From Aminobacter aganoensis (lineage in GTDB: Bacteria > Pseudomonadota > Alphaproteobacteria > Rhizobiales > Rhizobiaceae), in contig NZ_JACHOU010000003.1 in assembly GCF_014206975.1 (NCBI RefSeq), positions 496,001 to 560,000 on the forward strand: a stretch of 64,000 nucleotides of DNA, written 5' to 3'. Under the pieces are notes generated by a model, which had not been told where the DNA came from, ran no database searches, and saw nothing but the letters and a program-made list of their open reading frames with translations. The translations under genes were made by a program, and so were the position numbers. Of the stretch, positions 3,915-19,596 are shown in pieces. Position 1 is the first letter of the stretch, and every line of letters starts with the position of its first letter.

Positions 3915-5192
3915 ATGAGATTGAATACATTGCTCGCTGCGGCAGCCGCAGCGGCGCTGATGGCAAGCGCGGCTCATGCCGAAAATCTGAGGATAGGCGC
4001 CTCGCTGCCGATCACCGGCGGATTGTCGGTCAGCGGCGAGAAGCACAAGCGGGGCTACGAGCTCTGCACCAAGCTGATCAATGAGGCCGGGGGCATTCTC
4101 GGCCGCCAGGTCGAGCTGGTCGTCAGCGACAACCGTTCTGACACGGCAACCGCGATTAACCAGTACGAGCGCTTCATCAACGTTGACAAGGTCGAGGCGG
4201 TCTACGGCACGTTTTCGAGCCGCCTGACCTTCCCGGTCGCCAGCATCCTGTCGAAATACAACATGGTGCACGCCATCCCTTCGGGCGGCGCGCTGCGTAT
4301 CTATGAGCAGGGCTACAAGAACCTGTTCTACTTCCAGGTCAATGCCGCCGAATATACCGGCAAGGACGTGGCCGCGGTGATCAAGCAGCTCATCGCCGAG
4401 GGCCAGGCGCCGAAGACGGTTGCCGTCGTTTCCGCTGACGACTTCTTTGCCAATGCCATCGAGGCCGGCCTGCTCGGACAGAAGGTGAAGGACCCGGCGA
4501 CCGACAAGGAGATCGCCGATCTCGCACCGGGCTACCTCGCCGATGTCGGCATCGAAGTGGTGATGAAGGAGAAATGGCCCGAGGAAGGCTTCAACGACTG
4601 GCTGAACCTCGCCAACTCGATCAAGCGCTCCGGCGCCGAGATGATCATCGGCCTGACCGCCTCGGCGGAAGAGGCGGTGCAGTTGACGCGCAGCCTGAAG
4701 ACGGTCGGCGCCACGCCCAAGTTGGTCTACCTCAGCCAGGGTGCGCAGACCGAGTTCATCGAGGGCGTGGGCAAGGAGGCCGCCGACGGCGTGCTGATCC
4801 ACACCACCTGGCACAAGGACGTGCCGTTCGAGAGCACGCTGGCCGGCAAGCCGTTCAACAATGCCGACTTCGTCAAGGCCTTCACCGCTGAATACGGCGT
4901 CGAGCCGGACGAGGACAGCGCCATTCCGTTCGCTGTCTGCCAGGGCATCGAGCAGGCAATGATCGGCGCCGGCACCACCGACAACGCCAAGATGGGCGAA
5001 TGGCTGCACGCGCGCACCAAGGACAACCCGGTCCGCACCGTGCTCGGCCGCTTCTCCTGGGACGAGGTCGGCCTGCCGGTCGAGAAGTCCCACATCATGA
5101 CGCAGTGGCAGGGCGGCGAGCTGAAGTTCGTCTACCCGACGGGCGAGTTCGAAGGCGTGTCGCCGTTCAGCTACCCCAAGAACGGGTTCTGA
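3915..5192 (+). CDS. branched-chain-amino-acid-type ABC substrate-binding protein
   Basis: A 425-residue periplasmic binding protein of the LivJ/LivK type (Peripla_BP_6). The signal peptide ends at about residue 22 (SAAHA/ENL) and the mature start IGASLPITGGLSVSGEKHKRG is typical. It should capture the substrate for the two permeases and two ATPases that follow. Many relatives of this subfamily bind aromatic acids, amides or urea rather than amino acids. Location in one operon with ring-cleavage enzymes suggests an aromatic or related ligand here; that is inference. GGAGG precedes the ATG. Confidence 0.92.
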   Translation: MRLNTLLAAAAAAALMASAAHAENLRIGASLPITGGLSVSGEKHKRGYELCTKLINEAGGILGRQVELVVSDNRSDTATAINQYERFINVDKVEAVYGTFSSRLTFPVASILSKYNMVHAIPSGGALRIYEQGYKNLFYFQVNAAEYTGKDVAAVIKQLIAEGQAPKTVAVVSADDFFANAIEAGLLGQKVKDPATDKEIADLAPGYLADVGIEVVMKEKWPEEGFNDWLNLANSIKRSGAEMIIGLTASAEEAVQLTRSLKTVGATPKLVYLSQGAQTEFIEGVGKEAADGVLIHTTWHKDVPFESTLAGKPFNNADFVKAFTAEYGVEPDEDSAIPFAVCQGIEQAMIGAGTTDNAKMGEWLHARTKDNPVRTVLGRFSWDEVGLPVEKSHIMTQWQGGELKFVYPTGEFEGVSPFSYPKNGF

Positions 5193-5260
5193 CAAGACTG
5201 GCAGGGAGGACGCCCCACCTGGGCGTCTTCCCACCGCCGGCGGCTGCCGGCGTAGTCTGG

Positions 5261-5318
5261 CCCGCCGCCGGTGCTCCGGCGCAATTCGGCCCACCGCCGG
5301 TGCTCCGGCGCAACTCGG
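5261..5318 (+). repeat. 29-bp tandem duplication between importer genes
   Basis: Two head-to-tail 29-bp units (5261-5289 and 5290-5318) differ at only two positions, with a degenerate third copy just upstream (from 5230). The units are rich in CCGCCGG and CCGGCG and could pair in RNA. They separate the abundant binding-protein message from the ATPase genes. Confidence 0.75.
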
Positions 5319-5335
5319 AATGGGAGATCGGGCGG

Positions 5336-6082
5336 ATGCTCGAAGTCAAGAATCTTTGCAAGCATTTCGGCGGCATCAAGGCCGTCGACGGAGCCACGTT
5401 CACGGTCGAAAGAGGGTCGATCACCGCCCTGATCGGACCGAACGGCGCCGGAAAGACCACCGCCTTCAACTGCATCAGCCGGACGGCGGCGCCGTCCTCC
5501 GGCGAGGTCTGGCTCGACGGTGAGCGCATCGACCATTTGCGGCCGCACAAGGTCACGGCCAAGGGCCTGAGCAGGACCTTCCAGATTTCGCGCAACCTCG
5601 GCGACATGACGGTGATCGAAAACGTCATCGTGCAGTCCAAGGTCGACGGCCTGCGCGGCCTTTTCCGCCCGGCGATGACGTCGGAAGAAAAGGACAAGGC
5701 GATGTCGATCCTCGATTTCCTCGGCATCACCCGCATCGCCCACGAGGACGGCCACAACCTGTCCTACGGCCAGAAGAAGCTGATGGATCTGGCCGCACTG
5801 CTGATGTCGGACCCCAAGATCATCCTGCTCGACGAACCGGCCGGCGGCGTCAACCCGTCGCTGATGGAAGAGATCGTCGGCCATATCCGCGCCCTCAACG
5901 ACAAGGGCCTGACGGTGCTGATCGTCGAACACAACATGGAACTGATCATGCGGCTTTCGCACAAGGTCGTGGTCATGGCGCATGGCAAGGTCATCTGCGC
6001 CGGCACCCCCGACGTCGTCCGCAAGGACCCGCATGTGCTCGACGCCTATCTTGGCGGCGTGCTCGAAGACGAGGCGGCATGA
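5336..6082 (+). CDS. ABC transporter ATP-binding protein, LivG type
   Basis: A 248-residue ATPase of the branched-chain-amino-acid importer family. Walker A GPNGAGKTT (about residue 37), signature LSYGQKK, Walker B IILLDEP and switch His in VEHNME are all present. It pairs with the LivF-type ATPase encoded next. The start MLEVKNLCKHFGG follows a GGGAG box; the reading frame is open much further upstream, but that part covers the 29-bp repeats and the end of the preceding gene. Confidence 0.93.
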   Translation: MLEVKNLCKHFGGIKAVDGATFTVERGSITALIGPNGAGKTTAFNCISRTAAPSSGEVWLDGERIDHLRPHKVTAKGLSRTFQISRNLGDMTVIENVIVQSKVDGLRGLFRPAMTSEEKDKAMSILDFLGITRIAHEDGHNLSYGQKKLMDLAALLMSDPKIILLDEPAGGVNPSLMEEIVGHIRALNDKGLTVLIVEHNMELIMRLSHKVVVMAHGKVICAGTPDVVRKDPHVLDAYLGGVLEDEAA

Positions 6083-6083
6083 G

Positions 6084-6812
6084 ATGACCAAGCTACTGGA
6101 AGTCACCAACATCACCGCCGGCTACGGCGACGGCCCTGCCATCCTCGACGGCGCCCACCTGACTGTCGAGCCAGGCAAGGTCCACTGCATCATCGGCCCG
6201 AACGGCGCCGGCAAGTCGACGCTGCTCAAGGCGATCTGCGGCATGCTGTCGATCCGCAAGGGTGACGTCGTGTTCAAGGGCGAGCGGCTGAACGGTCTGC
6301 GCCCCGACCAGATCCTGCGCAAGGGCATCTGCTTCGTGCCGCAGGAACGCGCGCTGTTTCCGAAGATGACGGTGCGCGAGAACCTGCGCATGGGCGGCTT
6401 CATCCTCGACGACAAGAAGGAGCTCGAACGCCGCATCGACGGCATCCTCGAACGCTTCCCGATCCTGCGCGAGCGCGCCGAGCAGCATGCCGGCACCATG
6501 TCCGGCGGCCAGCAGCAGACGCTGGCCATGGCCCGCACCCTGATCATCAAGCCCGACATCGTCATGCTCGACGAGCCCTCGCTCGGCCTGGCGCCGAAGA
6601 TCGTCCAGGAAATGTTCGACATCATGAAGATGATGTCGGCGGAGGGCGTCACCGTATTGCTGGTCGAGCAGAACGCCCTGATGGGGCTGAAGAACGCCGA
6701 TTGGGGCGTCGTGCTCGACCTTGGCCGGACGCTGTTCGAAGGACCGGCAGCAACGGTGCTGGCCGATCCGCGCATCCAGGAACTTTACCTCGGCGGCAAG
6801 AAGGCCGCCTGA
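6084..6812 (+). CDS. ABC transporter ATP-binding protein, LivF type
   Basis: A 242-residue ATPase, partner of the LivG-type subunit, starting one base after its stop codon. Walker A GPNGAGKSTLLK, signature MSGGQQQTL, Walker B IVMLDEPSLGLAP and switch His replaced by Gln (VEQNA), as is normal in LivF proteins. Its length matches the family (about 235-245). Tight coupling with both neighbours indicates a single transporter complex at the cytoplasmic face of the membrane. Confidence 0.94.
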   Translation: MTKLLEVTNITAGYGDGPAILDGAHLTVEPGKVHCIIGPNGAGKSTLLKAICGMLSIRKGDVVFKGERLNGLRPDQILRKGICFVPQERALFPKMTVRENLRMGGFILDDKKELERRIDGILERFPILRERAEQHAGTMSGGQQQTLAMARTLIIKPDIVMLDEPSLGLAPKIVQEMFDIMKMMSAEGVTVLLVEQNALMGLKNADWGVVLDLGRTLFEGPAATVLADPRIQELYLGGKKAA

Positions 6813-6823
6813 CGGGGAACACC

Positions 6824-7702
6824 ATGGCAGAGATTTTGCAGATACTGATTTTGGGCCTGGCGCTTGGCGGCGTCATTGCCCTGATGGGCTCGGGCCTGTC
6901 GCTCGTCTTCGGCGTGATGCGCATCGTCAATCTTGCCCATCCCTCGCTGATCATCGGCGGCGCCTACATCACCTACCTGGCCTTCAAGGCGCTCGGCGTC
7001 GATCCGATCGTCATGCTGCCGGTCGCCGCCGTCATCATGGCCGCCATCGGCGTGGTGCTCTACCGGCTGGTGTTCCAGCGCGAGGCCAAGAGCGCCAAAT
7101 ATTCGGAAATGACGGTGCTGCTCACCTTCGCGTTGGCGATGATGGTGGAAGGCCTGCTCGGCGGCCTGTTCACCAACACCCAGCGGGTGACCTCGCCCGA
7201 CTACGCCACCGCGGCGTTCTTCATCGGCGACGTCTTCATCCCCAAGGGGCAGTTCTATGCCGGCGTCGTGTCTCTTACGATCATCGCCGCGCTGTCCTTG
7301 TTCCTCAAATACTCGCGGCTCGGCTACGCCATCCGTGCCACCACCCAGAACCGCGAGGCGGCGGAACTGCTCGGTGTCAACGTCCAGTTCATCAGCATCC
7401 TTGCCTTCGCCATCGGCATCGGCCTTGCGGGTGCCGCCGGATCGCTGGTCAGCTTCGTCTTTAGCTTCTTCCCGGCCAAGCACTGGGAGTGGATCGCCAT
7501 GCTGATGTCGGTGGTGGTGCTCGGCGGCATGGGCAGCATCCTCGGCACAGTGGTGGGGGCGCTGTTCCTCTCCGTGGTCGCCGCGTTCGTCGGCACCTGG
7601 ATCGGGGCGACCTGGTCGACGCTGACCTTCTTCCTCGCCCTTTTCATCATTCTGCTGGTCCGGCCCCAGGGGCTGTTCGGCGAAAAACCGGAGTTGGCAT
7701 GA
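6824..7702 (+). CDS. ABC transporter permease, LivH type
   Basis: A 292-residue inner-membrane permease with about eight hydrophobic segments. It has the family opening ILGLALGGVIALMGSGLSLVFGVMRIVNLAHPS and the late GGMGSILGTVVGAL loop that contacts the ATPase. It forms the translocation pore with the LivM-type permease. Its stop codon overlaps the next start (ATGA), so the two are probably co-translated. Confidence 0.93.
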   Translation: MAEILQILILGLALGGVIALMGSGLSLVFGVMRIVNLAHPSLIIGGAYITYLAFKALGVDPIVMLPVAAVIMAAIGVVLYRLVFQREAKSAKYSEMTVLLTFALAMMVEGLLGGLFTNTQRVTSPDYATAAFFIGDVFIPKGQFYAGVVSLTIIAALSLFLKYSRLGYAIRATTQNREAAELLGVNVQFISILAFAIGIGLAGAAGSLVSFVFSFFPAKHWEWIAMLMSVVVLGGMGSILGTVVGALFLSVVAAFVGTWIGATWSTLTFFLALFIILLVRPQGLFGEKPELA

Positions 7703-8745
7703 TGGCCGTCACCCTCCAGGACACCAGCGCCAGCGCTGTGATCGAGGCGCGCCGCGCCCACAACGAAAAACTGGCGCTCAAGGCCGACCAGACCCGGGCG
7801 ACGTGGTTCCCGGTCGCGGTTCTGGCCGTCCTCGCTGCCCTGCCGTTGCTGCAGTTCTACGGCAACTACAACTATGTACTGCACCTGGTACTGTTCACAG
7901 CCTCCTATGTCGCCATGGCTTCGGGATGGAACATCCTCGGCGGCTTCGCCGGTTACGTCTCGCTCGGCCACGCCGTGTTCTTCGGCGTCGGCGGTTATTT
8001 CTCCGGCATGATCCTGGCGCGCTATGGCATCTCGACGCTGATCACTGCACCGCTCGCCGGGCTTGTCGCTGCCGCTCTTGGCTATCTCGTCGGCATGGTC
8101 ACGCTCAAGGTGCGCGGCCCGAGCTTCATCATCTCCTCGATCGCTCTGCTGATGATCGCCCGCATCCTGTTCGACAACTGGCACTTCATCGGCGGCGCCA
8201 ACGGCCTGACCCTTCCGCCCAACGACCTGTCGGTGCAGTGGTCCAAGGTCCCGTATTATTATGCGATGGTGGCGATCGCGGCGTTCACCGTGTGGGCGAC
8301 CTACAAGATCAAGCACTCGAAGTTCGGGCTTGGCCTGCGCGCCATCTCCAAGGACGAGATCAAGGCCGAAAGTGCCGGCATCGACACGCGCTTCTACAAG
8401 GTCGTCGCCTTCGCCCTGTCGGCATTCTTCGTCGGCATGGCGGGTGCGGTGTGGGGCGAATACCTGACCTATCTCCGGCCCAACATTTTCCTGCTCATCC
8501 TGATCTCGGCCAACATGGTGCTGATGTGCATCCTCGGTGGCAAGGGCACGATCGCCGGCCCGGTCATCGGGGCGATCCTGATCGTCGCGCTCAACGAGCT
8601 CTTCGTCGCCACCATGGGTGCATCCGAAATCAACATCCTGGGCACCGGTTTGGTGATGGCGCTCGGCCTGATGTTCTTCCCGCTCGGGCTGGTGGGCACG
8701 CTCGCCAGGAACGGCAAGCTCCCGCGCATCCTCAACTGGGACTAG
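7699..8745 (+). CDS. ABC transporter permease, LivM type
   Basis: A 348-residue second permease of the importer. A cytoplasmic N-terminal stretch of about 38 residues precedes the hydrophobic core with GYVSLGHAVFFGVGGYFSGM and, late in the protein, GGKGTIAGPVIGAIL. It begins inside the LivH-type stop codon; a second ATG follows immediately, so the exact start may be one codon later. Only 64 bases separate it from the glutathione transferase gene, which argues that importer and degradation genes share a transcript. Confidence 0.93.
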   Translation: MMAVTLQDTSASAVIEARRAHNEKLALKADQTRATWFPVAVLAVLAALPLLQFYGNYNYVLHLVLFTASYVAMASGWNILGGFAGYVSLGHAVFFGVGGYFSGMILARYGISTLITAPLAGLVAAALGYLVGMVTLKVRGPSFIISSIALLMIARILFDNWHFIGGANGLTLPPNDLSVQWSKVPYYYAMVAIAAFTVWATYKIKHSKFGLGLRAISKDEIKAESAGIDTRFYKVVAFALSAFFVGMAGAVWGEYLTYLRPNIFLLILISANMVLMCILGGKGTIAGPVIGAILIVALNELFVATMGASEINILGTGLVMALGLMFFPLGLVGTLARNGKLPRILNWD

Positions 8746-8809: not shown

Positions 8810-9595
8810 ATGTCGGAATTCGTGCTTCACAATGCGCCGCAGTCCACCTGCAGCCAGCGTGTCCGCTATGTCCTTCACGCCAAGGGCAAGACCTTCGAGG
8901 AACACAAGCTCGACCTGTTCAAGGGCGACCAACTCAGGCCCGAGTACCTCGCGATCAACCCCAACGGTGTGGTGCCGACGCTGCTGCACGACGGCGCTCC
9001 GGTCACCGACTCCGCCGTCATCGTCGAATATCTCGAAGACATCCTCGGTGACGTCGCGCCGCTGAGGCCGCGCGACCCGCTGAAGGTGGCGGAGATGCGG
9101 GCAATGATGCGCTTCATCGACGAGGTGCCGACGCCGGCGATCCGGGTGCCGTCGTACAACCTCGCCTTCCTGCCGCACTACCAGGCGATGACCGAGGAGG
9201 AGTTCCAGGCGCTTTGCGACAGCAAGCCCCTGCGCCGCGAATTCCTGATGAAGATGGGCCGGACAGGCTTCCCCAAGGCCGACATGGACGAGGCGCTCGG
9301 TCGCTTGCAGCGCGGCATCGACCGCATGGCGGCATGGCTCGAAGCCAGTGGCGGCCCCTGGCTGATGGGCAAGGACCTGACGCTCGCCGACATCTCGATC
9401 ATGCCGGTCATCGTCAGGATGGACGACATCAATCTCGGCAATATGTGGGATCAGGCCCCCGAAATCGGCCGCTGGCTGGACAACATCCGGGCAACCGGAG
9501 CCTTCGCCAGGACCTACTACCACGGCTCGTTGCTGACCGAAAAATACCCGCATCTGCAGGCCGGCGCGAAGCGGGCGGAACCTGTCGAAGCCTGA
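8810..9595 (+). CDS. glutathione S-transferase, beta-etherase (LigF)-like
   Basis: A 261-residue GST with a thioredoxin-like N-terminal domain and an all-helical C-terminal domain. The N-terminus has a Ser/Cys-type active site (STCSQRVR), the cis-Pro block NGVVPTLLHDG, and DSAVIVEYLED. Its length, the TDSaVIvEYLED block and a later GFPkadmDEAL segment recall LigF-type GSTs that cleave beta-aryl ethers of lignin dimers, but I judge this by eye. It could instead be a maleylacetate or maleylpyruvate isomerase-like GST. It is first in a block of six to eight closely spaced genes; the ring-opening dioxygenase follows after 23 bases. GGAG precedes the ATG. Confidence 0.88.
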   Translation: MSEFVLHNAPQSTCSQRVRYVLHAKGKTFEEHKLDLFKGDQLRPEYLAINPNGVVPTLLHDGAPVTDSAVIVEYLEDILGDVAPLRPRDPLKVAEMRAMMRFIDEVPTPAIRVPSYNLAFLPHYQAMTEEEFQALCDSKPLRREFLMKMGRTGFPKADMDEALGRLQRGIDRMAAWLEASGGPWLMGKDLTLADISIMPVIVRMDDINLGNMWDQAPEIGRWLDNIRATGAFARTYYHGSLLTEKYPHLQAGAKRAEPVEA

Positions 9596-9618: not shown

Positions 9619-10545
9619 ATGGACCACACCAGGATCGAGCCGAAGCTCATCACCAAGGAAGCCGACGTCACGCCGACCGTGCTGGCGGCGATGGACGACA
9701 CCGACAATCTCCGCCTCAAGCAGATCATGACGGCGGCGGTAAACCATCTGCACCAGTTCGTGCTCGAAACACGCCCGACGGAAGAGGAGTTCGAGTATGC
9801 ACTGCGCTGGATCGTCGAGATCGGCCAGCGCACCAACGAGTTCCACAACGAGGTCGTGCTTGCGGCCGACGTGCTGGGTGCCTCGACGCTGATCGACCTG
9901 ATCAACAATGACGGCATGCAGGGCGAGACGATGTCGGCGCTGCTCGGGCCGTTCTACCGTGGCGGTGCTCCGGTCTGCGCGAACGGCGATTGCATCGCGC
10001 GCTCGGACACTCCCGGCTCTTCGCTGTTCTTCTCCGGCAAGGTCGTCGGCCCCGACGGCGAGCCGGTGGCGGGCGCCTCGCTGGATGTCTGGCAGGCTTC
10101 GCCGGTCGGCCTCTACGAGAACCAGGACGAGACCCAGGAGGATTGCAACCTGCGCGGCAAGTTCACCAGCGGCGCCGACGGCAGGTTCCATTTCCAGTCG
10201 GTGAAGCCGGCAGGCTACCCCGTCCCGACCGATGGCCCGGTGGGTGTCCTGCTGCGTGCCCAGAAGCGCACGCCGATGCGGCCGGCGCACATCCACTTCA
10301 TCGTCTCGGCACCGAAGCACAAGACACTGATCACGCAGATATTCTCCGACTCTCCGGAGGCGCTCGCCGCCGACGTGGTGTTCGGCGCCAAGCAGCAGAT
10401 CGTCGGCGACTTCGTCATGCACACGGAGCCGCATCCCGATTATCCCGGAGCGACGCTGCCCTTCTACACCTGCGTGTACAATTTCAAGCTGGTGGCCGGC
10501 ACGCCGACTTTCCCCGTCCCGCCGATCTCGGGAAAGAAGAGCTGA
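9619..10545 (+). CDS. hydroxyquinol 1,2-dioxygenase (intradiol)
   Basis: A 308-residue non-haem Fe(III) intradiol dioxygenase. It has the N-terminal helical dimer domain (residues 20-115, ending LLGPFYRGGAP) and the C-terminal barrel. Fe ligands are visible as Tyr166, Tyr200, His224 and His226 (the last two in RPAHIHFIV). The LLGPFYR and DVWQASPVGLYE blocks favour the hydroxyquinol/chlorocatechol branch. It would convert benzene-1,2,4-triol into 3-hydroxy-cis,cis-muconate, which tautomerises to maleylacetate. Plain catechol 1,2-dioxygenase activity cannot be excluded. No maleylacetate reductase of the usual iron-alcohol-dehydrogenase type is encoded nearby. Confidence 0.92.
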   Translation: MDHTRIEPKLITKEADVTPTVLAAMDDTDNLRLKQIMTAAVNHLHQFVLETRPTEEEFEYALRWIVEIGQRTNEFHNEVVLAADVLGASTLIDLINNDGMQGETMSALLGPFYRGGAPVCANGDCIARSDTPGSSLFFSGKVVGPDGEPVAGASLDVWQASPVGLYENQDETQEDCNLRGKFTSGADGRFHFQSVKPAGYPVPTDGPVGVLLRAQKRTPMRPAHIHFIVSAPKHKTLITQIFSDSPEALAADVVFGAKQQIVGDFVMHTEPHPDYPGATLPFYTCVYNFKLVAGTPTFPVPPISGKKS

Positions 10546-10548
10546 GCG

Positions 10549-11310
10549 ATGACTGCGCAGAATTCCCATCGTCCGCTTGAAGGCAAGGTCGCGGTCGTCG
10601 TCGGCGGCTCGGGCGGCATTGGCCGTGAAACCTGCCGGATGCTGGCCGATGCCGGCGCCATCGTCGTCGTCGGCTATCGCTCAGGCAAGGACAAGGCCGA
10701 GCAGATCGCCACAGGTCTGGCCGGCGAGGGCCACCTCGCGCTGCCGGTTTCGATCGAGGACACGGCCACGATCGAGGCGTTCAGGGACGCGGTCGCGGAC
10801 AGGTTCGGACGGGCCGACATCCTGGTCAACACGGCAGGCATCACCGAGCCGGTGGCGCATGGCGATCTCGACGCGCTGACCGACGAGCTGATCGACCGCA
10901 TCTTCATCAACAACTGGCGCGGCGTGTTCGCCACGATCCGGGCTTTCGCGCCGGCGCTCAAGGCGAGCGGCGACGGGCTGATCGTCAACGTCTCGTCGAT
11001 CGCAGCCTTCACAGGCATCGGTTCCAACGTCGCCTATTGCGGCGCCAAGGCCGGTGTCGACATCATGACCAACTCGCTCGGTCGTGCGCTGGCGCCGGCG
11101 ATCCGGGTGATGGCGGTGTCGCCCGGCGCGGTCGACACGCAGTTCGTTCCCGGCCGCGGCAAGGAATTCACCGACAAGGTCGCCGCAACCACGCCGCTTA
11201 AGCGGATCACCAGCCCGGTCGACGTCGCCGAGGCGATCGCCGCCTGCGCAACGCATCTGAAATTCTCGACTGGCAGCCGCATTGTCGTCGACGGGGGAAG
11301 GCACCTGTAA
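10549..11310 (+). CDS. short-chain dehydrogenase/reductase
   Basis: A 253-residue classical SDR. The NAD(P) loop GGSGGIG is at residues 19-25, NTAG at about 94-97, and the catalytic Ser150, Tyr163 and Lys167 (YCGAK) are all present. The cytosolic reaction is alcohol/ketone interconversion; the substrate is unknown. It starts three bases after the dioxygenase stop codon and its own stop overlaps the BKACE start (TAATG). Its placement suggests it processes the ring-opening product or makes the keto acid for BKACE. Confidence 0.92.
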   Translation: MTAQNSHRPLEGKVAVVVGGSGGIGRETCRMLADAGAIVVVGYRSGKDKAEQIATGLAGEGHLALPVSIEDTATIEAFRDAVADRFGRADILVNTAGITEPVAHGDLDALTDELIDRIFINNWRGVFATIRAFAPALKASGDGLIVNVSSIAAFTGIGSNVAYCGAKAGVDIMTNSLGRALAPAIRVMAVSPGAVDTQFVPGRGKEFTDKVAATTPLKRITSPVDVAEAIAACATHLKFSTGSRIVVDGGRHL

Positions 11311-12188
11311 TGCAGCCGAAAGTCATCATCACCTGTGCCGTGACCGGCAATTTGACCACCCGGGAAAACCATCCCGGCCTGCCGGTGACCCCGGAGGAGA
11401 TCGCCAATGCCTGCCTCGATGCGGCGGATGCCGGCGCGGCCATCGCCCATATCCATGTCCGCGACCCCGAGACGGCGAAGCCGTCGATGGAGCTGAAGCA
11501 CTATCGCGAGGTGGTCGAGCGGATCCGGGCGAAGAACAACGCGCTGATCCTCAACGTCACCACCGGACCCGGCGGGCGCTACCATCCGAGCGACGAGAAC
11601 CCGGCGGTGGCCGGGCCGCGCACGACGCTGATCCGGCCGGAAAAGCGCGTCGAGCATATCGTTGCGCTGAAGCCCGACATCGCCACGCTCGACCTCAACA
11701 CCATGACCTTCGGCAATGAGGTGGTGATCAACACGCCTGCCAACGTCAAGATCATGGCCGACATCATCAACGAGGCCGGCTCCAAGCCGGAGCTCGAGGT
11801 CTTCGACACCGGCCACATCGTGCTGGCACAGGACCTGATCAAGGCGGGCGTGCTGAAGTCGCCGGCCATGTTCACCATCGTCACCGGCGTCAAATACGGC
11901 TTCCCGTCGACGACCGACGTCATGGCCACCGCCGCGCGGATGCTGCCGCGCGACGCGGTCTGGACCGGCTTCGGTGTCGGTCGGATGTCGTTTCCGATGG
12001 CGGTCCAGGCCTATCTGCTCGGCGGCCATGTCCGCGTCGGCCTGGAGGACAATTCGTACATCGCCAAGGGTGTGCTCGCCAGGGACAACGGCGAACTGGT
12101 GGAGCGCGCCCGCGACCTTATCGAAAAACTCGGCGGGCAGATCGCCAGCCCGTCGGAAGCCAGGGAAATGCTGGGGCTTGCCGCCTGA
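11310..12188 (+). CDS. beta-keto acid cleavage enzyme (BKACE family)
   Basis: A 292-residue TIM-barrel, zinc-dependent BKACE (formerly DUF849). Zinc ligands are His47 and His49 (AHIHVRD) and Glu246 (VGLEDN). The family condenses a beta-keto acid with acetyl-CoA to give acetoacetate and a new acyl-CoA. Known members use 3-keto-5-aminohexanoate, dehydrocarnitine or 3-oxoadipate. Between a hydroxyquinol dioxygenase and reductases, 3-oxoadipate (giving succinyl-CoA and acetoacetate) is an attractive candidate substrate, which is inference. It is coupled to the SDR by a one-base overlap. Confidence 0.93.
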   Translation: MQPKVIITCAVTGNLTTRENHPGLPVTPEEIANACLDAADAGAAIAHIHVRDPETAKPSMELKHYREVVERIRAKNNALILNVTTGPGGRYHPSDENPAVAGPRTTLIRPEKRVEHIVALKPDIATLDLNTMTFGNEVVINTPANVKIMADIINEAGSKPELEVFDTGHIVLAQDLIKAGVLKSPAMFTIVTGVKYGFPSTTDVMATAARMLPRDAVWTGFGVGRMSFPMAVQAYLLGGHVRVGLEDNSYIAKGVLARDNGELVERARDLIEKLGGQIASPSEAREMLGLAA

Positions 12189-12220
12189 GCGGCGCAGCTT
12201 GAGTCAAGGAGATTGAGAAG

Positions 12221-13225
12221 ATGAACATTCAAGCAAGCGCCAAGTCCGGCAACGCCCTCAGGGTGTCGCAGAAATCGCCCGACCTCGACAATCTCCTGAT
12301 CGACGTGGCCGAAGTGGGTGCTCCGCGCCCCGGTCCCGGCCAGGTGCTGGTCGAGATCGTGGCGGCGGGCGTCAACCCGAGCGACGTCAAGGCATCGCTC
12401 GGCCACATGCCGCATGCCATCTGGCCGCGCACGCCGGGCCGCGACTTCGGCGGCATCGTCCGCGAAGGCCCCCCCCAGATGATCGGCATGGAAATCTGGG
12501 GCGGCGGCGGCGAACTCGGCATCAGCCAGGACGGCAGCCACGGCAAGTGGATGGTGCTCGACCAGAAGGCGGTGCGCGCCAAGCCGAAGAACTTCTCCAT
12601 GGAGGAGGCCGGCTCGGTCGGTGTCCCGTTCATCACCGCCTATGAAGGCCTGCGCGAGGCCGGCGGCGCCCAGCCGACCGACGTGGTCCTGGTCTGTGGC
12701 GCCAATGGCAAGGTCGGCCAGGCCGCGATCCAGCTTGCCACCCTGGCCGGCGCCACGGTCTTTGCCGTCGAATACAACGACCAGCCGCTGATGGGACACA
12801 CCAACGGCCCGGTCACGATGCTGAACAGCGCGGTCGACGACGTCGCGGCGATCGTCCGCGACATGACCGGCGGCCACGGCGCCGACATCGTCTTCAACAC
12901 CGTCGGCAGCCCCTATTTCGAGATCGCCAACAAGGCGATGGCCAAGCAGGCGCGGCAGATCTTCATTTCGACCTTCGATCGCGCCGTGCCCTTCGACATC
13001 TTCAACTTCTTCCGCGGCCGCCACAAATACATCGGCGTCGACACGCTGGCCTTGTCTTCGATCGATGGTGCGCGGATCTTCGACAAGCTGAAGCTGAAGT
13101 TCGAGGGAGGCCTGCTCAAGCCGTTCCCGATCAACCCGGCCTGCTGCTACGGTCTGGGCGATGCCGCCAAGGCCTATGCCTCGGTGCTGCGCGGCACCCC
13201 CGAGCGCGTGTTGCTCAAGCCGTAA
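12221..13225 (+). CDS. MDR-family (quinone oxidoreductase-like) reductase
   Basis: A 334-residue medium-chain reductase of the zinc-free quinone-oxidoreductase branch. It has an N-terminal GroES-like domain with AAGVNPSDVKASLG and TPGRDFGGIV, and a Rossmann domain with CGANGKVGQAAIQLA at about residue 160. The structural zinc cysteines are absent. Relatives reduce quinones or activated C=C bonds with NADPH. Since no classical maleylacetate reductase is present, this enzyme or the SDR could reduce maleylacetate; this is a hypothesis. It sits 32 bases after BKACE, with an AGGAG-like box. Confidence 0.88.
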   Translation: MNIQASAKSGNALRVSQKSPDLDNLLIDVAEVGAPRPGPGQVLVEIVAAGVNPSDVKASLGHMPHAIWPRTPGRDFGGIVREGPPQMIGMEIWGGGGELGISQDGSHGKWMVLDQKAVRAKPKNFSMEEAGSVGVPFITAYEGLREAGGAQPTDVVLVCGANGKVGQAAIQLATLAGATVFAVEYNDQPLMGHTNGPVTMLNSAVDDVAAIVRDMTGGHGADIVFNTVGSPYFEIANKAMAKQARQIFISTFDRAVPFDIFNFFRGRHKYIGVDTLALSSIDGARIFDKLKLKFEGGLLKPFPINPACCYGLGDAAKAYASVLRGTPERVLLKP

Positions 13226-13237
13226 GGAGAAGCCGCC

Positions 13238-13570
13238 ATGCAGGTCACCCGCTACAGCGAGGCCAAGCCCTACGAGGCGCCGGAGCACTACGACATGCGC
13301 TGTCTGCGCCTGCAGGGCAAGGAGGCGACGACGACCGACACGATCTGGATCGGTCTGTCGCATCTGCTGCCGGGCGGGCGCACGTCGCTCAAGGACGCGG
13401 CGGTGGAGAAGATCTACATCGTCGTTGCCGGCGAGGTGACGGTCGAGACCGTGGACGGCGCGGTGACGCTTGGCGTGCTCGACAGCTGCCGGCTGGCGCC
13501 CGGCGAGGCGCGCGCGCTGGTCAACCGCACCAACGCCCCGGCCTCGATCCTCCTGGCGATGCCGACGTGA
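13238..13570 (+). CDS. cupin-domain protein
   Basis: A 110-residue single-domain cupin, 12 bases after the MDR gene. Conserved beta-barrel features are visible (LPGGRTSLKDAAVEKIYIVVAGEVTV, then SCRLAPGEARALVNRTNAPASILLA). In the first cupin motif the usual G(X)5HXH is replaced by GGRTSLKD, so the metal-binding His pair is missing and a metal-dependent reaction is doubtful. It may bind a small molecule or act as an accessory or isomerase protein for the pathway. The role is unknown. Confidence 0.82.
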   Translation: MQVTRYSEAKPYEAPEHYDMRCLRLQGKEATTTDTIWIGLSHLLPGGRTSLKDAAVEKIYIVVAGEVTVETVDGAVTLGVLDSCRLAPGEARALVNRTNAPASILLAMPT

Positions 13571-13580: not shown

Positions 13581-14138
13581 ATGGGCAGGCACAGCGTGAC
13601 CAAGGCGACGATCTACCGGCTGGGCGAACGCATGCCCAGCCTGCCGGCGGACGGCAATTGCTACGTTGCTCCGGGCGCTGCCGTCATCGGCGATGTGCGC
13701 CTCGCCAGCGGCACCAGCATCTGGTTCAACGCCGTGCTGCGCGGCGACAACGAGCCGATCACCATCGGCAAGGGTTCCAATGTCCAGGATGGCTGCGTCA
13801 TCCACACCGACCCCGGATATCCCGTCGAGATCGGCGAGGACGTCACCATCGGCCACAACGCGATCATCCATGGCTGCAGCATCGGCAATGGCAGCCTGGT
13901 CGGCATGGGGGCGACGGTCCTCAACGGAGCCAGGATCGGCGAACGCTGCCTGGTCGGCGCCAATTCGCTCGTCCGCGAGGGCATGGTCGTGCCGGACGGC
14001 TCGCTCGTCATCGGCGTTCCTGCCAAGATCGTCAGGCAACTCGATGCGGAGGCGGCCGCGAAGCTGTCCCAGGGGGCCGTTCGATACCGTTCAAAAGCCG
14101 AAACCTATCCGCTCGAACTCGAGGCGATCGACCCGTAG
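13581..14138 (+). CDS. gamma-carbonic anhydrase-like protein (PaaY/CaiE-like)
   Basis: A 185-residue left-handed beta-helix protein. Hexapeptide repeats run from about residue 25 to 150, and the metal His set typical of gamma-carbonic anhydrases is visible in VIHTDPG and TIGHNAIIHGC. Relatives include CaiE (carnitine operon) and PaaY, a thioesterase that hydrolyses dead-end CoA thioesters in phenylacetate breakdown. In this operon of CoA-dependent catabolism a PaaY-like proof-reading thioesterase role is plausible. The ATG at 13581 follows the cupin stop by ten bases; the longer frame overlapping the cupin gene is not family sequence. Confidence 0.88.
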   Translation: MGRHSVTKATIYRLGERMPSLPADGNCYVAPGAAVIGDVRLASGTSIWFNAVLRGDNEPITIGKGSNVQDGCVIHTDPGYPVEIGEDVTIGHNAIIHGCSIGNGSLVGMGATVLNGARIGERCLVGANSLVREGMVVPDGSLVIGVPAKIVRQLDAEAAAKLSQGAVRYRSKAETYPLELEAIDP

Positions 14139-14190: not shown

Positions 14191-15243
14191 ATGAGCGAGA
14201 CTGAAAACCGGCTGTTGAGCGTGGTGGAACACTGGCTGCCCCGCATGGAGGTCGCCGGCATTCCATCGGCAACGGCCAAGTCGGTGATCGAAGCCGCCGG
14301 CGTCTGGGAGAACTGGCTCACGGCCTGGAGCGCCGAAGGCGACCGCCACGACGCGATGGGCGAAGAAGCGCTCGCGCTTGGACGTAGGATCACCGCCGGC
14401 GAGGCCTTTTCCCGCGCCAGCCTGTTTTATCACTTCGGTCAGTTCATGGCCTTCGACGATCTCAAGGCCAAGGACGTGGCGTTGGCTCGCAAGGTCGCGC
14501 TGTACCGCAAGGCCGCGCCCTTGCTCGAGCAGCCGGCCGAACTGGTCGAGGTGCCGTTCGAGGACGGCGTGCTGCGCGCCTATCTCAGGCGGCCACAGGG
14601 CTCGGGGCCGCATCCGCTGGCACTGATCATTCCCGGTTCCGATTCCACCAAGGAGGAGTTTCCGGCGTTCGAGCGTCATTTCCTCGGGCGTGGCATCGCA
14701 ACGCTGTCGCTCGACGGCCCGGGGCAGGGCGAAGGACGCTCGCACGGCCACCTGCGCGCCGACATCACCGCCGCGATCGCGGCGACCATCGCGGCGGTCA
14801 AGGGAAAGCCTGGCTTGTCGGGTGCCGTCGGCTTGGTCGGCATGGCCTTCGGCGGCTTCATGGCGCTGCGGGCGGCAGCGGCGCTGGACGGCCTCGCAGG
14901 CGTGATCTCCATCAACGGCTTCCATGACCTTGGCGCGATGTGGCCGACGCTGCCGAAGGTCTATCAGGACAACATGACCTTCGCGCTCGGCGGGGACGAC
15001 GTTCTCGAAAGCGCCCGCCGCTTCACCCTGGCCGGCGTCGAGGGGCCAACGGTCCCCGCGCTCATCCTGCATGGCGCCCGCGACAAGATTTTCCCGCCTT
15101 CGGAAGCGCAGAAAAGCGCCGACATGTGCCGAGGGGACGTCGAACTGCATGTCTTTCCCACCGGAAACCATGTCTGCAACAACATCCCCTGGCTCTACCG
15201 GCCGCTGGTCGCCGACTGGCTGTCGGAGCGGTTCAAAGCCTAG
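14191..15243 (+). CDS. alpha/beta-hydrolase-fold protein lacking its nucleophile
   Basis: A 350-residue protein with a helical N-terminal region (1-115) and an alpha/beta-hydrolase core. The layout resembles the C-C hydrolase group that includes 2,6-dihydroxypseudooxynicotine hydrolase. The oxyanion strand (IIPGSDSTKEE, about 147-157), Asp298 (HGARDKIFPP) and His327 (TGNHVCNN) are in place. The nucleophile elbow reads G-M-A-F-G (217-221), so Ala219 replaces the usual Ser, Cys or Asp. It is therefore probably not a standard ester hydrolase. GGAAGGA lies upstream of the ATG; it is last in the dioxygenase operon and is followed by a hairpin. Confidence 0.87.
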   Translation: MSETENRLLSVVEHWLPRMEVAGIPSATAKSVIEAAGVWENWLTAWSAEGDRHDAMGEEALALGRRITAGEAFSRASLFYHFGQFMAFDDLKAKDVALARKVALYRKAAPLLEQPAELVEVPFEDGVLRAYLRRPQGSGPHPLALIIPGSDSTKEEFPAFERHFLGRGIATLSLDGPGQGEGRSHGHLRADITAAIAATIAAVKGKPGLSGAVGLVGMAFGGFMALRAAAALDGLAGVISINGFHDLGAMWPTLPKVYQDNMTFALGGDDVLESARRFTLAGVEGPTVPALILHGARDKIFPPSEAQKSADMCRGDVELHVFPTGNHVCNNIPWLYRPLVADWLSERFKA

Positions 15244-15269
15244 AGAGGATCAATTTTCCCACGCAGACG

Positions 15270-15291
15270 TCAGCCGGCATTCGCCGGCTGA
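15270..15291 (+). terminator. hairpin at the end of the dioxygenase operon
   Basis: A 9-bp perfect stem (TCAGCCGGC / GCCGGCTGA) with an ATTC loop begins 27 bases after the stop codon. It has no long T-run. It separates the first catabolic operon from the AraC-type sites of the next. Confidence 0.45.
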
Positions 15292-15324
15292 CTGGTTGAT
15301 TGTGCAAGCGTGTTGCGAGAAACA

Positions 15325-15362
15325 TCCACCAATAATCGGACGATAGTCCACCATTAGCGGAC
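15325..15362 (+). promoter_or_regulatory. AraC-type direct repeats upstream of the ACAD/ETF operon
   Basis: TCCACCAATAATCGGAC (15325-15341) is repeated as TCCACCATTAGCGGAC (15347-15362). The starts are 22 bp apart, two turns of DNA, as in AraC activator sites. A weak promoter (CTGACC at 15371, ATACCA near 15394, spacing 17) lies eight bases downstream. The AraC-family gene 3 kb downstream is the obvious candidate binder. Confidence 0.6.
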
Positions 15363-15458
15363 ATCACGGCCTGACCCTGGATCACCGGCGCTGATACCAA
15401 TTTCGGCATGGACGGAAGGCACTGGCAGCCGACCGAATTGTACTCGAAGGGAGCGAAA

Positions 15459-16703
15459 ATGATTCACGCCGATGATGGGATCCTGTCCCAGGAACAGCGC
15501 CTGATGCGCGACAGCTGCCGGTCGTTTGTCGACGACGTGGTGACACCGTTCATCCGCTCGAACTGGCAGCGCGAATGGGACATGAGCCCCGGCGAGCGCC
15601 TGCCGAGCGCGATCCTCGAAGGTGCTGAGGCGATTGGCGTCCGCACCCTCGGCGTGCCGGAGGAATTCGGCGGCATCGACCTGGAGAAGGAGACGGAGGT
15701 TCGCACCTTCGCCCTGATCTCCGAGGAAATCGCCCGCGGCGATTCCGGTCTCGCCGACAAGCTGGTGCAGAACTGGAAGGTCTCGATCGTGCTGCGGCAG
15801 TTCGCGCCGAAGCATCTTCAGGAGAAGTGGTTCCCGCGCCTGCTGGAAGACCCCAAGTTCCTGCTGGCGCACTGCCTGACCGAGCCGCGCGGCGCATCCG
15901 ACCGCTGGCTGCCCTACAACGTGCCCGAGGCCTCGATGCACACCAAGGCCGTGCTCGACGGCGACCATTGGGTCATCAACGGCCGCAAGCAGTTCATCTC
16001 CAACGGCTTCGATGCCAGCCTCTACGTCGTCTATGCCAACACCGATCCTTCGGTCGGCATGCTGCAGGGCACGTCGAGCTTCCTGGTGCCCCGCGGCACC
16101 CCCGGCCTCACCATCACCAAGTGCAACGAGACGATGGGCTGCCGTTTCATGAACAATGGCGAGCTGGTCTTCGAGGATTGCCGCGTGCCGGCCGACCACC
16201 TGCTCGTCAAAAGCACCGCGCTGGCCTCCGCCGGCCAGTATTTCCGGGCCGGCAAGATCATCCAGGCGGCCAAGAACCTCGGCGTCGGCGTCGCCTGTTT
16301 CGAGCGCACCGCCGACTACGTCCAGAACTATGTCCAGGGCGGCCGCATCCTGATCAAGCACCAGGCCGTGGCCCTCAGGCTCGCCGACATGGCGACCCGC
16401 ATCGAGGCGGTCCGGTCGCTGGTCGAGCGTGCGGCGAAGGCGGTCGATGAAGCCCATCCCGACGCCGACATCCTCTGCAACATGGCCAAGGTCTATGCTT
16501 CGGAGGAGATCATGAAGGTCGCCACCCATGCGCTCGAACTGCACGGCGGCAACGGCGCGATGCTCGAGTTCGGCATCGAGAAGCTGTTCCGCGACGCCGC
16601 GATCTTCCTGCACATGGATGCGACGGTCGACGTCAGCCGGATGAAGATCATCAAGAACATGTTCCCCGCGACCGCCGGCAAGTACGCCGGTCCGGAAAGC
16701 TGA
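15459..16703 (+). CDS. acyl-CoA dehydrogenase-family flavoprotein, divergent
   Basis: A 414-residue FAD enzyme with the three ACAD regions: N-terminal helices, a central beta domain ([10 protein letters not shown] near 140, a variant of the FAD motif) and C-terminal helices (LHGGNGAML). At the site of the classical catalytic Glu (YEGT) it reads MDAT, so Asp387 stands in for Glu. The usual R..FG signature before the IKHQ block is also altered ([11 protein letters not shown]). The next two genes encode ETF, so it is probably an ETF-linked dehydrogenase rather than a reductase-coupled monooxygenase. The substrate is unknown and may not be a simple acyl-CoA. AGGGAG precedes the ATG. Confidence 0.88.
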
Positions 16704-16768
16704 GGCAATCGGCCGGGGCGGCGGCGCCAGCAGGCGTGGCCGTCCCTGATCGGGCAAGGGAGGAACAG

Positions 16769-17518
16769 ATGAAGGTAGTGGTTGCGGTGAAGCGGGTTGC
16801 CGATCCCAACGTCAAGGTGCGCGCCTTGGCGGACGGTTCGGGCGTAGACCTCGCCAACGTCAAGATGACGATGAATCCTTTCGACGAGATCGCCGTCGAG
16901 GAGGCGGTTCGGCTCAAGGAAGCCGGGCATGCGACCGAGATCGTGGTCGTTTCGGTAGGCCCGGAGAAATCGGCCGAAACGTTGCGCACGGCGCTCGCCA
17001 TGGGCGCCGATCGTGGCCTGCTGGTGCGTTCGGACGCGGTCGTCGAGCCGCTTGCCGTCGCAAAGATTCTGAAGGCTGTCGCCGAGACGGAGAAGCCGGA
17101 CCTGATCATCGTCGGCAAGCAGGCGATCGACGACGACGCCAACCAGACCGGCCAGATGCTGGCGGCCTTGCTCGGCTGGGGCCAGGGCACCTTTGCCTCG
17201 AAGATCGCCATTGGCGGCGCTGCGATCGAGGTCACCCGCGAGGTCGACGGCGGCCTGCAGACGGTCAACCTGCCGCTGCCGGCATTGGTCACGGCCGACC
17301 TCAGGTTGAACGAGCCGCGCTACGCCTCGCTGCCCAACATCATGAAGGCCAAGAAGAAGCCGATCGACGAGAAGACCCCCGCCGACTACGGCGTCGCCGT
17401 CGAGCCGCGCCTGACCGTCGTGCGCGTGCACGAGCCGGCAACCCGCAAGGCAGGCATCAAGGTCGGCTCCGTGGCCGAGCTCGTCGACAAGCTGCGCACC
17501 GAAGCAGGAGTTCTGTGA
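16769..17518 (+). CDS. etfB: electron transfer flavoprotein, beta subunit
   Basis: A 249-residue ETF beta subunit that binds AMP and, with the alpha subunit, accepts electrons from flavin dehydrogenases. It has the family start [33 protein letters not shown], and [29 protein letters not shown] box sits close to the ATG. It follows the divergent acyl-CoA dehydrogenase by 65 bases and overlaps the alpha subunit (TGATG). Whether this is the cell's only ETF or a dedicated second copy cannot be told from this window. Confidence 0.95.
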
Positions 17519-18468
17519 TGACCATTCTCGTTCTGGCCGAACATCAGGACACGCAGCTCGACGAGGCCACCGCCAAGGCGGTCTCGGCCGCTGGCCGCAT
17601 GGGCGGCGACGTGCATGTGTTGGTGGCCGGGTCAGGTTGTGGTGCCGCAGCCGAAGCCGCCGCTCGGCTGGAGGGCGTCGCCAAGGTCCTGCTTGCCGAC
17701 GACCCAAGCCTGGCGAACCGGCTTGCCGAGCCGGTTGCGGCCCTGGTCGTCAGCCTCGCCGGCGGCTACGATGCCTTGCTTGCACCCTCGACCACCAGCG
17801 GCAAGAACATCATGCCGCGCGTGGCCGCATTGCTCGACGTGATGCAGATATCCGACGTCATTGCGGTCGAAGGCCCGGATCTCTTCCAGCGCCCGATCTA
17901 TGCCGGCAACGTGATCCAGACCGTGCGCTCTACCGATGCCAGGAAGGTGCTGACCGTGCGCGTGTCGTCCTTCCCGGCTGCCGCGGTCACCGCTGCCACA
18001 CGGCCGATCGAAGCCGCGGCCATTTCGGCCGATCCCGCGCGGTCGTCATTCGTGCGAAGCGAGCTGTCAGGTTCGGAGCGCCCCGAACTGACCGGCGCCC
18101 GCATCGTCGTCTCGGGTGGACGCGCGCTGGCCTCGGCCGAGAACTTCGAGACCGTCCTGGCCCCGTTGGCCGATCGGCTCGGTGCCGCGATCGGCGCGAG
18201 CCGGGCGGCGGTCGATGCCGGATACGTCTCGAACGACCTGCAAGTCGGCCAGACCGGCAAGATCATCGCGCCCGACCTCTACATCGCCTGCGGCATTTCG
18301 GGAGCGATCCAGCATCTCGCAGGCATGAAGGATTCCAAGGTCATCGTCGCCATCAACAAGGATCCGGAAGCGCCGATCTTCCAGGTCGCCGACTATGGCC
18401 TGGTCGCCGACCTGTTCGAGGCGGTGCCGGAGTTCCACGCGACGGTTGCCGAAAAGATGAGGGCGTGA
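17518..18468 (+). CDS. etfA: electron transfer flavoprotein, alpha subunit
   Basis: A 316-residue ETF alpha subunit. It has an N-terminal domain starting [15 protein letters not shown] and the C-terminal FAD domain with the signature [33 protein letters not shown] and a Leu-rich end. It forms a heterodimer with the beta subunit and passes electrons to the ETF:quinone oxidoreductase encoded about 4 kb downstream. The ATG shares a base with the etfB stop; a GTG one codon earlier is possible. Confidence 0.95.
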
Positions 18469-18519
18469 GTCAATCGGGCTAGCCGCTTGCCGCGGCGATG
18501 TCGGACCGGAGGAGCCAAC

Positions 18520-19596
18520 ATGGCAAAGGGTGGGATCGAAAAGCCTGTGCGTTTTCGTCCTGAACGCGATGCGGAGGAGGAAGGGACCCTGGCGGCTCCG
18601 TTCCGCTCCTATGCGCTCGACCGGTCCGACAGTCCGCGGTTCCACATCCGGCTGGTGGAAAACACCCAGCGGCTCTACCCCGCCCACAAGCACGACTACT
18701 TCCAGATCATTTATTTCATGTCCGATGCGCCGATGACCCGGATCGGCCTGACCTCGCACAAGCCGAAGGCCGGGTCGATCTATTTCATCGCGCCGATGGT
18801 GCCGCACCAGATCAGGTTCGACCATGCCACGCGCTGCGCGGTCATCTACTTCGATCTCGACTTCCTCCGCCCCAGCATCACCCGGTCCTACCCGGTGACG
18901 GAACTCGTCCGGCTGGCGCCGGAATTGACGCCCTTTGCCTGGCAGAACCATGTCAATTTCGATCTCGGGAGTTCACAGGCGGAGCGCACGGATCGCGCGG
19001 TCGCCTCGATGATCGCCCAGCATGGTTCCGAGCGCATGTGCGAGACCGAGATCGTGCGTGCGGAACTGACACTGATGCTCGCCACCCTGTGCCAGGACTA
19101 CGAGGCCGAGTTTGCCGAACTGTCGAAGAAGCTGCCGGTCGTCGGGCGCGACAGCGGCCATATGCGCCGTATCGCCGAATTCATCGGCGAGAACTACACG
19201 CGCGGCCCGAGCCTGGACGAAGCGGCGGACGCGGCGCGCCTCTCCAAGAGCCGGCTCTGCGCCCTGATCCGACAGTATACCGGCACCAGCTTCAATGCCC
19301 TGATCCGCGAGATGCGCATCGAGGACGCGCGCGAGCGCCTGGTGCTGACCGACGAAACCATCGGCCAGATCGCCTATTCCGTCGGCTACAACGATGAGAA
19401 GTATTTCCTTCGCGCCTTCAAGAATTCCGTCGGCATGACGCCGAGCGCCTACCGGCTGAAGCGGGCTAAGGAAAGCCTCGCCGCGGCATCCGAGCCCGAT
19501 GCCGGTCCCCCGCGCGTGCGCACTGCGCCGCGGCCAGGCGCGAAACTCGCGGCCTCCAGGGACAGCCGCGACAAGGTTGCGGGGCGCAAGTCATGA
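18520..19596 (+). CDS. AraC-family transcriptional regulator
   Basis: A 358-residue regulator. The N-terminal cupin-like sensor domain (YPAHKHDYFQIIYFM near residue 55, then GSIYFIAPMVPHQI) is followed by two C-terminal helix-turn-helix motifs (SLDEAADAARLSKSRLCALIRQ and IGQIAYSVGYNDEKYFLRAFKNSVGMTPSAYR, about 235-320) and a basic tail of some 35 residues. GGAGGAG precedes the ATG. Its stop overlaps the start of the molybdenum hydroxylase small subunit (ATGA), so regulator and enzyme are co-translated. It probably activates this cluster, with 22-bp-spaced repeats upstream of the ACAD gene as a candidate site. Confidence 0.93.
   Translation: MAKGGIEKPVRFRPERDAEEEGTLAAPFRSYALDRSDSPRFHIRLVENTQRLYPAHKHDYFQIIYFMSDAPMTRIGLTSHKPKAGSIYFIAPMVPHQIRFDHATRCAVIYFDLDFLRPSITRSYPVTELVRLAPELTPFAWQNHVNFDLGSSQAERTDRAVASMIAQHGSERMCETEIVRAELTLMLATLCQDYEAEFAELSKKLPVVGRDSGHMRRIAEFIGENYTRGPSLDEAADAARLSKSRLCALIRQYTGTSFNALIREMRIEDARERLVLTDETIGQIAYSVGYNDEKYFLRAFKNSVGMTPSAYRLKRAKESLAAASEPDAGPPRVRTAPRPGAKLAASRDSRDKVAGRKS

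Follow-up and report, generated by a model that had tools for sequence, protein, structure and literature searches.

A conserved dioxygenase–BKACE gene cassette in Aminobacter aganoensis as a candidate second ending of hydroxyquinol degradation

This study concerns a catabolic gene set in Aminobacter aganoensis, located in a stretch of 64,000 nucleotides that is referred to here as the window. Four adjacent genes at positions 9619–13225 encode an intradiol dioxygenase (DIOX), an SDR-family oxidoreductase, a BKACE and an MDR-family reductase, and are together called the cassette. All four had been read from the DNA in a preliminary description and are confirmed by their coordinates and by Pfam; as stated there, they are tightly packed, with gaps of three bases after DIOX and 32 bases before MDR, while SDR and BKACE overlap by one base. 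While the four-gene core of that description stands, the gene run is longer than it had noted and takes in a LacI-family regulator with operator-like sites, a transporter, a GST-family protein, a small cupin, a hexapeptide protein and a hydrolase (Table 1). The cassette may provide an ending for the degradation of hydroxyquinol or a related compound.

The four genes are a conserved module, a self-contained catabolic cassette. A scan of genome contigs with DIOX returned 368 relatives, and the first count below was made on the best 80 of these 368 loci. If a partner gene is accepted within 5.5 kb downstream of DIOX on the same strand, BKACE is present in 46 of the 47 loci with a DIOX at least 50% identical to that of the window, compared with one of 33 loci below 50%; MDR follows in 44 of the 47, the cupin in 41 and SDR in 39. 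The sole locus above 50% without BKACE is L033, whose sequence stops 150 bases past DIOX, and the sole locus below 50% with BKACE is L048, a full cassette with a DIOX of 49%. Sequence is also limited at L019, which starts 49 bases before DIOX, and at L083, which stops about 2.1 kb after it. Under a wider rule (partner within 9 kb on either strand, 55 cassette DIOX rows excluding the window) BKACE is found in 54 rows, MDR and SDR in 52 each, the cupin in 49, LacI in 47 (at least 36% identity), GST in 29, the alpha/beta hydrolase in 19 and the hexapeptide protein in 10. Small versions occur in Rhizobium sp. T136 (LacI, transporter, GST, DIOX, SDR, BKACE, MDR, cupin and hexapeptide protein) and in Skermanella (LacI, cupin, TRAP transporter, DIOX, SDR, BKACE and MDR), while at L040 and L044 the order is DIOX, BKACE, MDR, and within 9 kb there is no SDR that reaches 50% identity. 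Among the best 80 loci the cassette is spread over rhizobia, roseobacter relatives and some Burkholderiales.

A second line of conservation comes from the palindrome GCAATCGWTTGC, which lies between the LacI gene and the transporter of the window, at 3651 and 3707. It occurs in 47 of the 55 cassette loci (accepted anywhere in the locus; in L032 it is about 10 kb from DIOX) vs none of 32 other dioxygenase loci, and was not found in the remaining eight (L019, L020, L037, L048, L054, L055, L096 and L097). The exact form is present in 38 of the 55, compared with an average of 0.04 loci and a maximum of one for 50 palindromes with shuffled half-sites. Within the 64-kb window alone, four matches are obtained with one mismatch permitted, a number reached in 10 of 100 shuffles and thus not rare, so the weight of the palindrome rests on its conservation. 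Together, the linkage of BKACE in 46 of 47 loci and the palindrome in 47 of 55 place the cassette beyond chance.

On the scale of whole genomes, the palindrome pattern is found at two places in the genome of the window, in the gene run (two copies) and at C12:99104, with no match for the reversed control. In 26 other cassette genomes the exact palindrome occurs 48 times on the forward strand vs once for the reversed control, and is absent from five of the 26; 38 of these copies are at the cassette, one is on the cassette contig in G319 and nine are elsewhere. The ten off-cassette stretches of these genomes, one of them on a cassette contig, gave nothing with the queries used beyond weak transporter matches in two. 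The C12 site (G000 C12:93000–105000, L163, locus position 6105) precedes two amidohydrolases and then an SsuA-family binding protein; the first amidohydrolase belongs to subfamily PRK08204 (490.9 bits, cut-off 391) and the second is more distant (263.3 bits). Two amidohydrolases above the PRK08204 cut-off precede DIOX in L030, relatives of the first C12 enzyme lie near the cassette in L047 (49–55%, plus one of 32%) and L029 (33%), and L150 has an amidohydrolase of another kind near its cassette. The cassette is probably controlled by its LacI protein, which we infer to bind the palindrome; a literature search on LacI with hydroxyquinol led nowhere.

DIOX consists of the N- and C-terminal domains of catechol dioxygenases with two tyrosines and two histidines as iron ligands. 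These ligands, Y166, Y200, H224 and H226, are as intact as previously described and are present in 56 of 56 cassette rows. The five best solved relatives comprise three proteins named hydroxyquinol or chlorohydroxyquinol dioxygenase, PnpC and one intradiol domain protein. Asp84 of DIOX aligns with Asp83 of the hydroxyquinol dioxygenase 1TMX, a residue that presumably contacts the third hydroxyl of the substrate; a literature search on 1TMX Asp83 led nowhere. The position is aspartate in all 56 cassette rows, in ten of ten dioxygenases linked to a maleylacetate reductase and in seven of seven second dioxygenases beside cassettes, and glycine in 37 of 38 dioxygenases of the sister group. Asp84 favours a hydroxyquinol-type substrate, and hydroxyquinol itself is the predicted substrate of DIOX. 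Intradiol cleavage of hydroxyquinol yields maleylacetate.

In a quick tree of 113 dioxygenases (hits below 100 bits or proteins shorter than 220 residues excluded; several long branches flagged), the maleylacetate-reductase-linked dioxygenases form one group, and the cassette enzymes form the other with a hydratase-linked clade. Sister-clade dioxygenases with the glycine adjoin hydratase and aldolase genes in L052, L062, L065, L068, L076, L081, L142, L143 and L154, which suggests a 2-hydroxymuconate-type product for this clade, possibly formed from pyrogallol. The assumption that relatives of DIOX below 50% identity are ordinary hydroxyquinol enzymes is weakened, most of them belonging to the clade with glycine in place of Asp84 and several having hydratase or aldolase neighbours. 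A separate observation concerns L094 (13101–15879), L150 and L152, where BKACE is 82–95% identical to that of the window and DIOX only 49–53%; their dioxygenases group with those of Bradyrhizobium and Bosea cassettes, an apparent case of dioxygenase exchange inside the cassette.

BKACE clears the gathering score of its Pfam family by a wide margin (327.1 vs 24.8 bits). Its zinc ligands H47, H49 and E246, intact as the preliminary description had it, are found in every one of the 52 cassette rows and align with the zinc ligands His48, His50 and Glu247 that passages of PMC12871164 give for BsfD. The closest solved relative, PDB 9zsc (384.7 bits, ungapped alignment over 287 residues), is taken to be BsfD, an enzyme of flavophos biosynthesis, on the basis of residue numbering and apo/ligand set. 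Arg91 of BsfD is placed near the phosphonate in the same passages (PMC12871164); the equivalent R90 is conserved in all 52 cassette rows, and all 33 rows of the 3-oxoadipate kind have it too when a two-residue gap is allowed in the alignment. That kind is represented by the curated family NF053568 (3-oxoadipate:acetyl-CoA acetyltransferase), for which 74 of 297 genomes in the order score above the cut-off. NF053568 proteins and the window BKACE have in common the BKACE family, the zinc ligands, the arginine of the GGR loop and a phenylalanine in place of a tyrosine, and differ in sequence (30–36% identity in five rows compared).

The preliminary description had seen no classical maleylacetate reductase, and no close one was found genome-wide with the enzyme of L145 as query: the genome has four Fe-ADH matches, and the best match to the query reaches 92.9 bits at 31% identity over partial length. 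Close relatives of the same query in other genomes score 363–500 bits. A survey of 26 cassette genomes other than that of the window (L042 left out), made for both maleylacetate reductase and pcaF, found a close maleylacetate reductase in 14 and none in 12 as assembled. An NCBIfam negative says little here because annotated maleylacetate reductases go unrecognised, those of L155 and L156 matching no family at 1e-40 and that of L145 only the 4-hydroxybutyrate dehydrogenase model; the search with the L145 query is the test. The MDR protein belongs to the quinone-oxidoreductase/enone-reductase group, and its relatives include enoyl reductases. GHE and four-cysteine motifs are the usual zinc motifs; MDR has neither, and three cysteines in all. 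For the role of maleylacetate reductase MDR is more likely than SDR, because L040 and L044 keep MDR without SDR; these two loci hold the three enzymes, DIOX, BKACE and MDR, that such a route needs.

Known systems provide both parallels and differences. The gamma-resorcylate cluster of Rhizobium leguminosarum (L148), which belongs to the hydroxyquinol pathway, encodes a dioxygenase of the DIOX superfamily with the same aspartate; unlike the window cassette, clusters such as this contain an iron-dependent maleylacetate reductase. The ten maleylacetate-reductase-linked dioxygenases are 37–41% identical to DIOX and have no cassette MDR (at least 40% identity) within 9 kb. In Roseobacter plasmid operons of Pseudosulfitobacter (L155, 7022–8700) and Phaeobacter gallaeciensis (L156, 6965–8684), BKACE comes directly after a dioxygenase that belongs to the reductase-linked group. 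The two BKACEs have NF053568 scores of 491.6 and 475.4 bits, respectively, and each cluster also contains a gene annotated as maleylacetate reductase. These two loci are thus probable hydroxyquinol operons with a BKACE ending. The window cassette differs in both the annotated reductase and the NF053568 match; it would represent another solution, assembled separately, that uses a BKACE not covered by NF053568 and a different reductase.

The idea of a BKACE in place of pcaIJF is already published for protocatechuate, and the cassette variant is new. Passages of PMC8963497 describe Methylobacterium protocatechuate operons without pcaIJF that carry a DUF849 gene, proposed, with reference to Bastard et al. 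2014, to act on beta-ketoadipate. In both systems a BKACE is proposed for the work of a CoA-transferase and a thiolase, but Methylobacterium represents the protocatechuate branch with a G4 BKACE, whereas the window combines a dioxygenase of the hydroxyquinol type with a BKACE that falls outside NF053568 and a candidate reductase of a non-iron kind. Passages elsewhere describe an SDR–BKACE pair in deoxyribonate catabolism (PMC6365646) and a characterised BKACE-family enzyme in phloroglucinol degradation (PMC10470551). BsfD has the same insertion and arginine as the window BKACE; it is biosynthetic, acetylating a phosphonate keto acid that then loses CO2, as far as passages of PMC12871164 describe it. 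Our literature search, whose coverage excludes most subscription journals, found no paper joining hydroxyquinol or maleylacetate with a BKACE.

The proposed route would start from an imported compound that is, or becomes, hydroxyquinol or a close derivative. DIOX, judging by its family and residues, would open the ring to maleylacetate. A cassette reductase, MDR more likely than SDR, would replace the iron-dependent maleylacetate reductase and form 3-oxoadipate, and BKACE would convert 3-oxoadipate and acetyl-CoA into succinyl-CoA and acetoacetate, as its family, the conserved arginine and the analogous operons suggest. Read from sequence, this passage from maleylacetate to succinyl-CoA and acetoacetate by way of MDR or SDR and then BKACE has in our estimate an even chance of being correct. 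The one-step BKACE ending, which the preliminary description had put forward, draws support from the conserved module, the hydroxyquinol-type DIOX, the lack of a close maleylacetate reductase and the Roseobacter analogues; pcaF and CoA-transferase genes elsewhere in the genome and a BKACE outside NF053568 tell against it.

The points that weigh against the proposed route begin with those genes. pcaF (696.3 bits, cut-off 597) lies at C13:54–57 kb together with a pair of CoA_trans proteins (57.1 and 143.8 bits); the earlier statement that no CoA-transferase or thiolase is seen thus holds for the window and fails for the genome. Only its context marks the C13 pair as a 3-oxoadipate CoA-transferase: the pcaJ model gives 24.3 vs 243.55 bits, and NCBIfam has no match at 1e-30. 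pcaF is also above cut-off in 23 of the 26 surveyed cassette genomes. Because pcaF and the CoA-transferase pair are present, no gap needs filling, and on this ground, together with the occurrence of pcaF in most cassette genomes, the notion that BKACE makes up for absent pcaIJF genes is rejected. As to a shared regulon, pcaIJF is not in the cassette gene run, and a whole-genome pattern search places neither of the two exact palindrome sites on C13.

Further such points come from the enzymes themselves. BKACE misses the NF053568 cut-off (191.2 vs 350 bits), and two further cassette BKACEs score 189.3 and 163 bits. R90 is also found in the BKACEs of L147 and L151, the annotated neighbours of L151 including no dioxygenase; since both share it, R90 is compatible with a distal acid group and not proof of one, and the example of L151 weakens its value as a marker specific for dicarboxylate substrates. 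Passages of PMC12871164 say that all BKACEs carry a tyrosine implicated in catalysis, and Phe165 replaces it in 52 of 52 cassette rows. Phenylalanine is likewise present in 30 NF053568 loci, three more of the 3-oxoadipate kind (L062, L065 and L081) and the carnitine-context BKACE of L141. The tyrosine is therefore not a general BKACE feature, and the suggestion that its replacement disqualifies BKACE is rejected, the curated 3-oxoadipate kind having the same phenylalanine. DIOX clusters in the quick tree with the hydratase-linked clade, not with the maleylacetate-reductase-linked group. L010, L012, L013, L018, L022 and L043 each have another dioxygenase, of the classic type, no more than 10 kb from the cassette, and in L010, L012 and L022 a match to maleylacetate reductase is found close to it; two dioxygenases would be redundant or odd if both acted on plain hydroxyquinol, and the substrate of DIOX may therefore be a substituted hydroxyquinol. 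Finally, MDR was not found in the 28.9 kb searched at L097, which keeps SDR, and with L040 and L044 lacking SDR both reductases stay candidates.

The remainder of the gene run is summarised in Table 1. It is headed by a five-gene ABC transporter of branched-chain-amino-acid type (3915–8745), whose binding protein matches mostly amino-acid or generic binders in the PDB; a promoter scan found 0 promoters. In NCBIfam the cupin matches a model named beta-D-galactosidase (97 bits, cut-off 175), a name that is probably misleading. Downstream of the cassette (14191–23899) lie the alpha/beta hydrolase, an acyl-CoA dehydrogenase and genes reading as electron transfer flavoprotein (ETF), an AraC regulator, a two-subunit molybdenum hydroxylase and ETF-QO, which perhaps form an upstream route. 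Further along, at 25801–29288, two adjacent Amidohydro_3 proteins with similar N termini are apparently a tandem duplication.

Table 1. Features of the cassette gene run in the A. aganoensis window
Feature	Position	Strand	Remarks
LacI-family regulator	2571–3602	−	Divergent from gene run; 343 aa from ATG; Pfam LacI and Peripla_BP on longer open reading frame
Operator-like site 1, GCAATCGTTTGC	3651–3662		Putative LacI binding
Operator-like site 2, GCAATCGATTGC	3707–3718		Perfect palindrome; putative LacI binding
LivK-type substrate-binding protein	3915–5192	+	Basis includes PGAP name of Shinella counterpart
ABC transporter ATPase, LivG type	5336–6082	+	
ABC transporter ATPase, LivF type	6084–6812	+	
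ABC transporter permease, LivH type	6824–7702	+	
ABC transporter permease, LivM type	7699–8745	+	
GST-family protein	8810–9595	+	Weakly maiA-like (76.1 bits, cut-off 171)
Intradiol dioxygenase DIOX, hydroxyquinol type	9619–10545	+	Pfam Dioxygenase_N and Dioxygenase_C
SDR oxidoreductase	10549–11310	+	Pfam adh_short
BKACE	11310–12188	+	Pfam PF05853, 327.1 bits
MDR, quinone-oxidoreductase/enone-reductase-like	12221–13225	+	Candidate maleylacetate reductase; Pfam ADH_N and ADH_zinc_N
Small cupin protein	13238–13570	+	Pfam 24.6 bits, below 27.2 cut-off
Gamma-carbonic-anhydrase/PaaY-like hexapeptide protein	13581–14138	+	Accessory
Alpha/beta hydrolase	14191–15243	+	Accessory; best PDB match 2,6-dihydroxypseudooxynicotine hydrolase

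Other explanations start from the same genes. The ring substrate could be a substituted hydroxyquinol-like compound, or be released from an amino-substituted or N-heterocyclic precursor, in which case BKACE would act on a substituted 3-oxo acid and its product would not be exactly succinyl-CoA; we consider this rather unlikely, if still a serious contender. It would account for the additional dioxygenase, of the classic type, that six loci have next to the cassette, and the amidohydrolases, two of them behind the sole other exact palindrome of the genome and others near the cassettes of L029, L030, L047 and L150, hint that an upstream compound might contain an amine or amide that can be hydrolysed. 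The continuation of the window run into alpha/beta hydrolase, acyl-CoA dehydrogenase, ETF and molybdenum-hydroxylase-like genes points the same way, yet many cassettes, such as those of Rhizobium sp. T136 and Skermanella, do without the accessory genes, and DIOX keeps the aspartate of the hydroxyquinol type. A more improbable variant omits 3-oxoadipate altogether: BKACE would cleave maleylacetate directly with acetyl-CoA to maleyl- or fumaryl-CoA and acetoacetate, MDR would then reduce that unsaturated thioester to succinyl-CoA, and the GST protein could act, optionally, as a cis-trans isomerase. Maleylacetate is a beta-keto acid in its own right, enoyl reductases are among the relatives of MDR, the GST protein is weakly maiA-like and the genes at L040 and L044 stand in the order of this scheme; however, the order of genes counts for little as evidence, the related curated family takes its name from 3-oxoadipate, and we know of no BKACE shown to accept an unsaturated substrate, no search aimed at one having been made.

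The likeness to BsfD raises the prospect that BKACE acetylates a beta-keto acid with loss of CO2 instead of performing a retro-Claisen cleavage. BsfD is the closest solved relative and has both the phenylalanine and the arginine in common with BKACE (according to passages of PMC12871164), but such chemistry would give a catabolic gene run a dead-end diketone as its product, and the curated 3-oxoadipate kind has the same phenylalanine; we regard it as very improbable. That the four genes are chance neighbours and not one pathway is scarcely credible: SDR or MDR is now and then missing or displaced, as such an explanation would allow, but the linkage of BKACE, the recurrent palindrome and the packed or overlapping genes all speak against it.

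If the proposed route through 3-oxoadipate and BKACE is true, aromatic degradation can end in a second way in its hydroxyquinol branch, with acetoacetate among the products and a reductase that shares no relationship with the known maleylacetate reductase. The public names on cassette genes, '3-keto-5-aminohexanoate cleavage protein' and 'zinc-binding alcohol dehydrogenase', hide this pathway from view, while the palindrome next to LacI makes both the regulon and the inducing compound directly testable.

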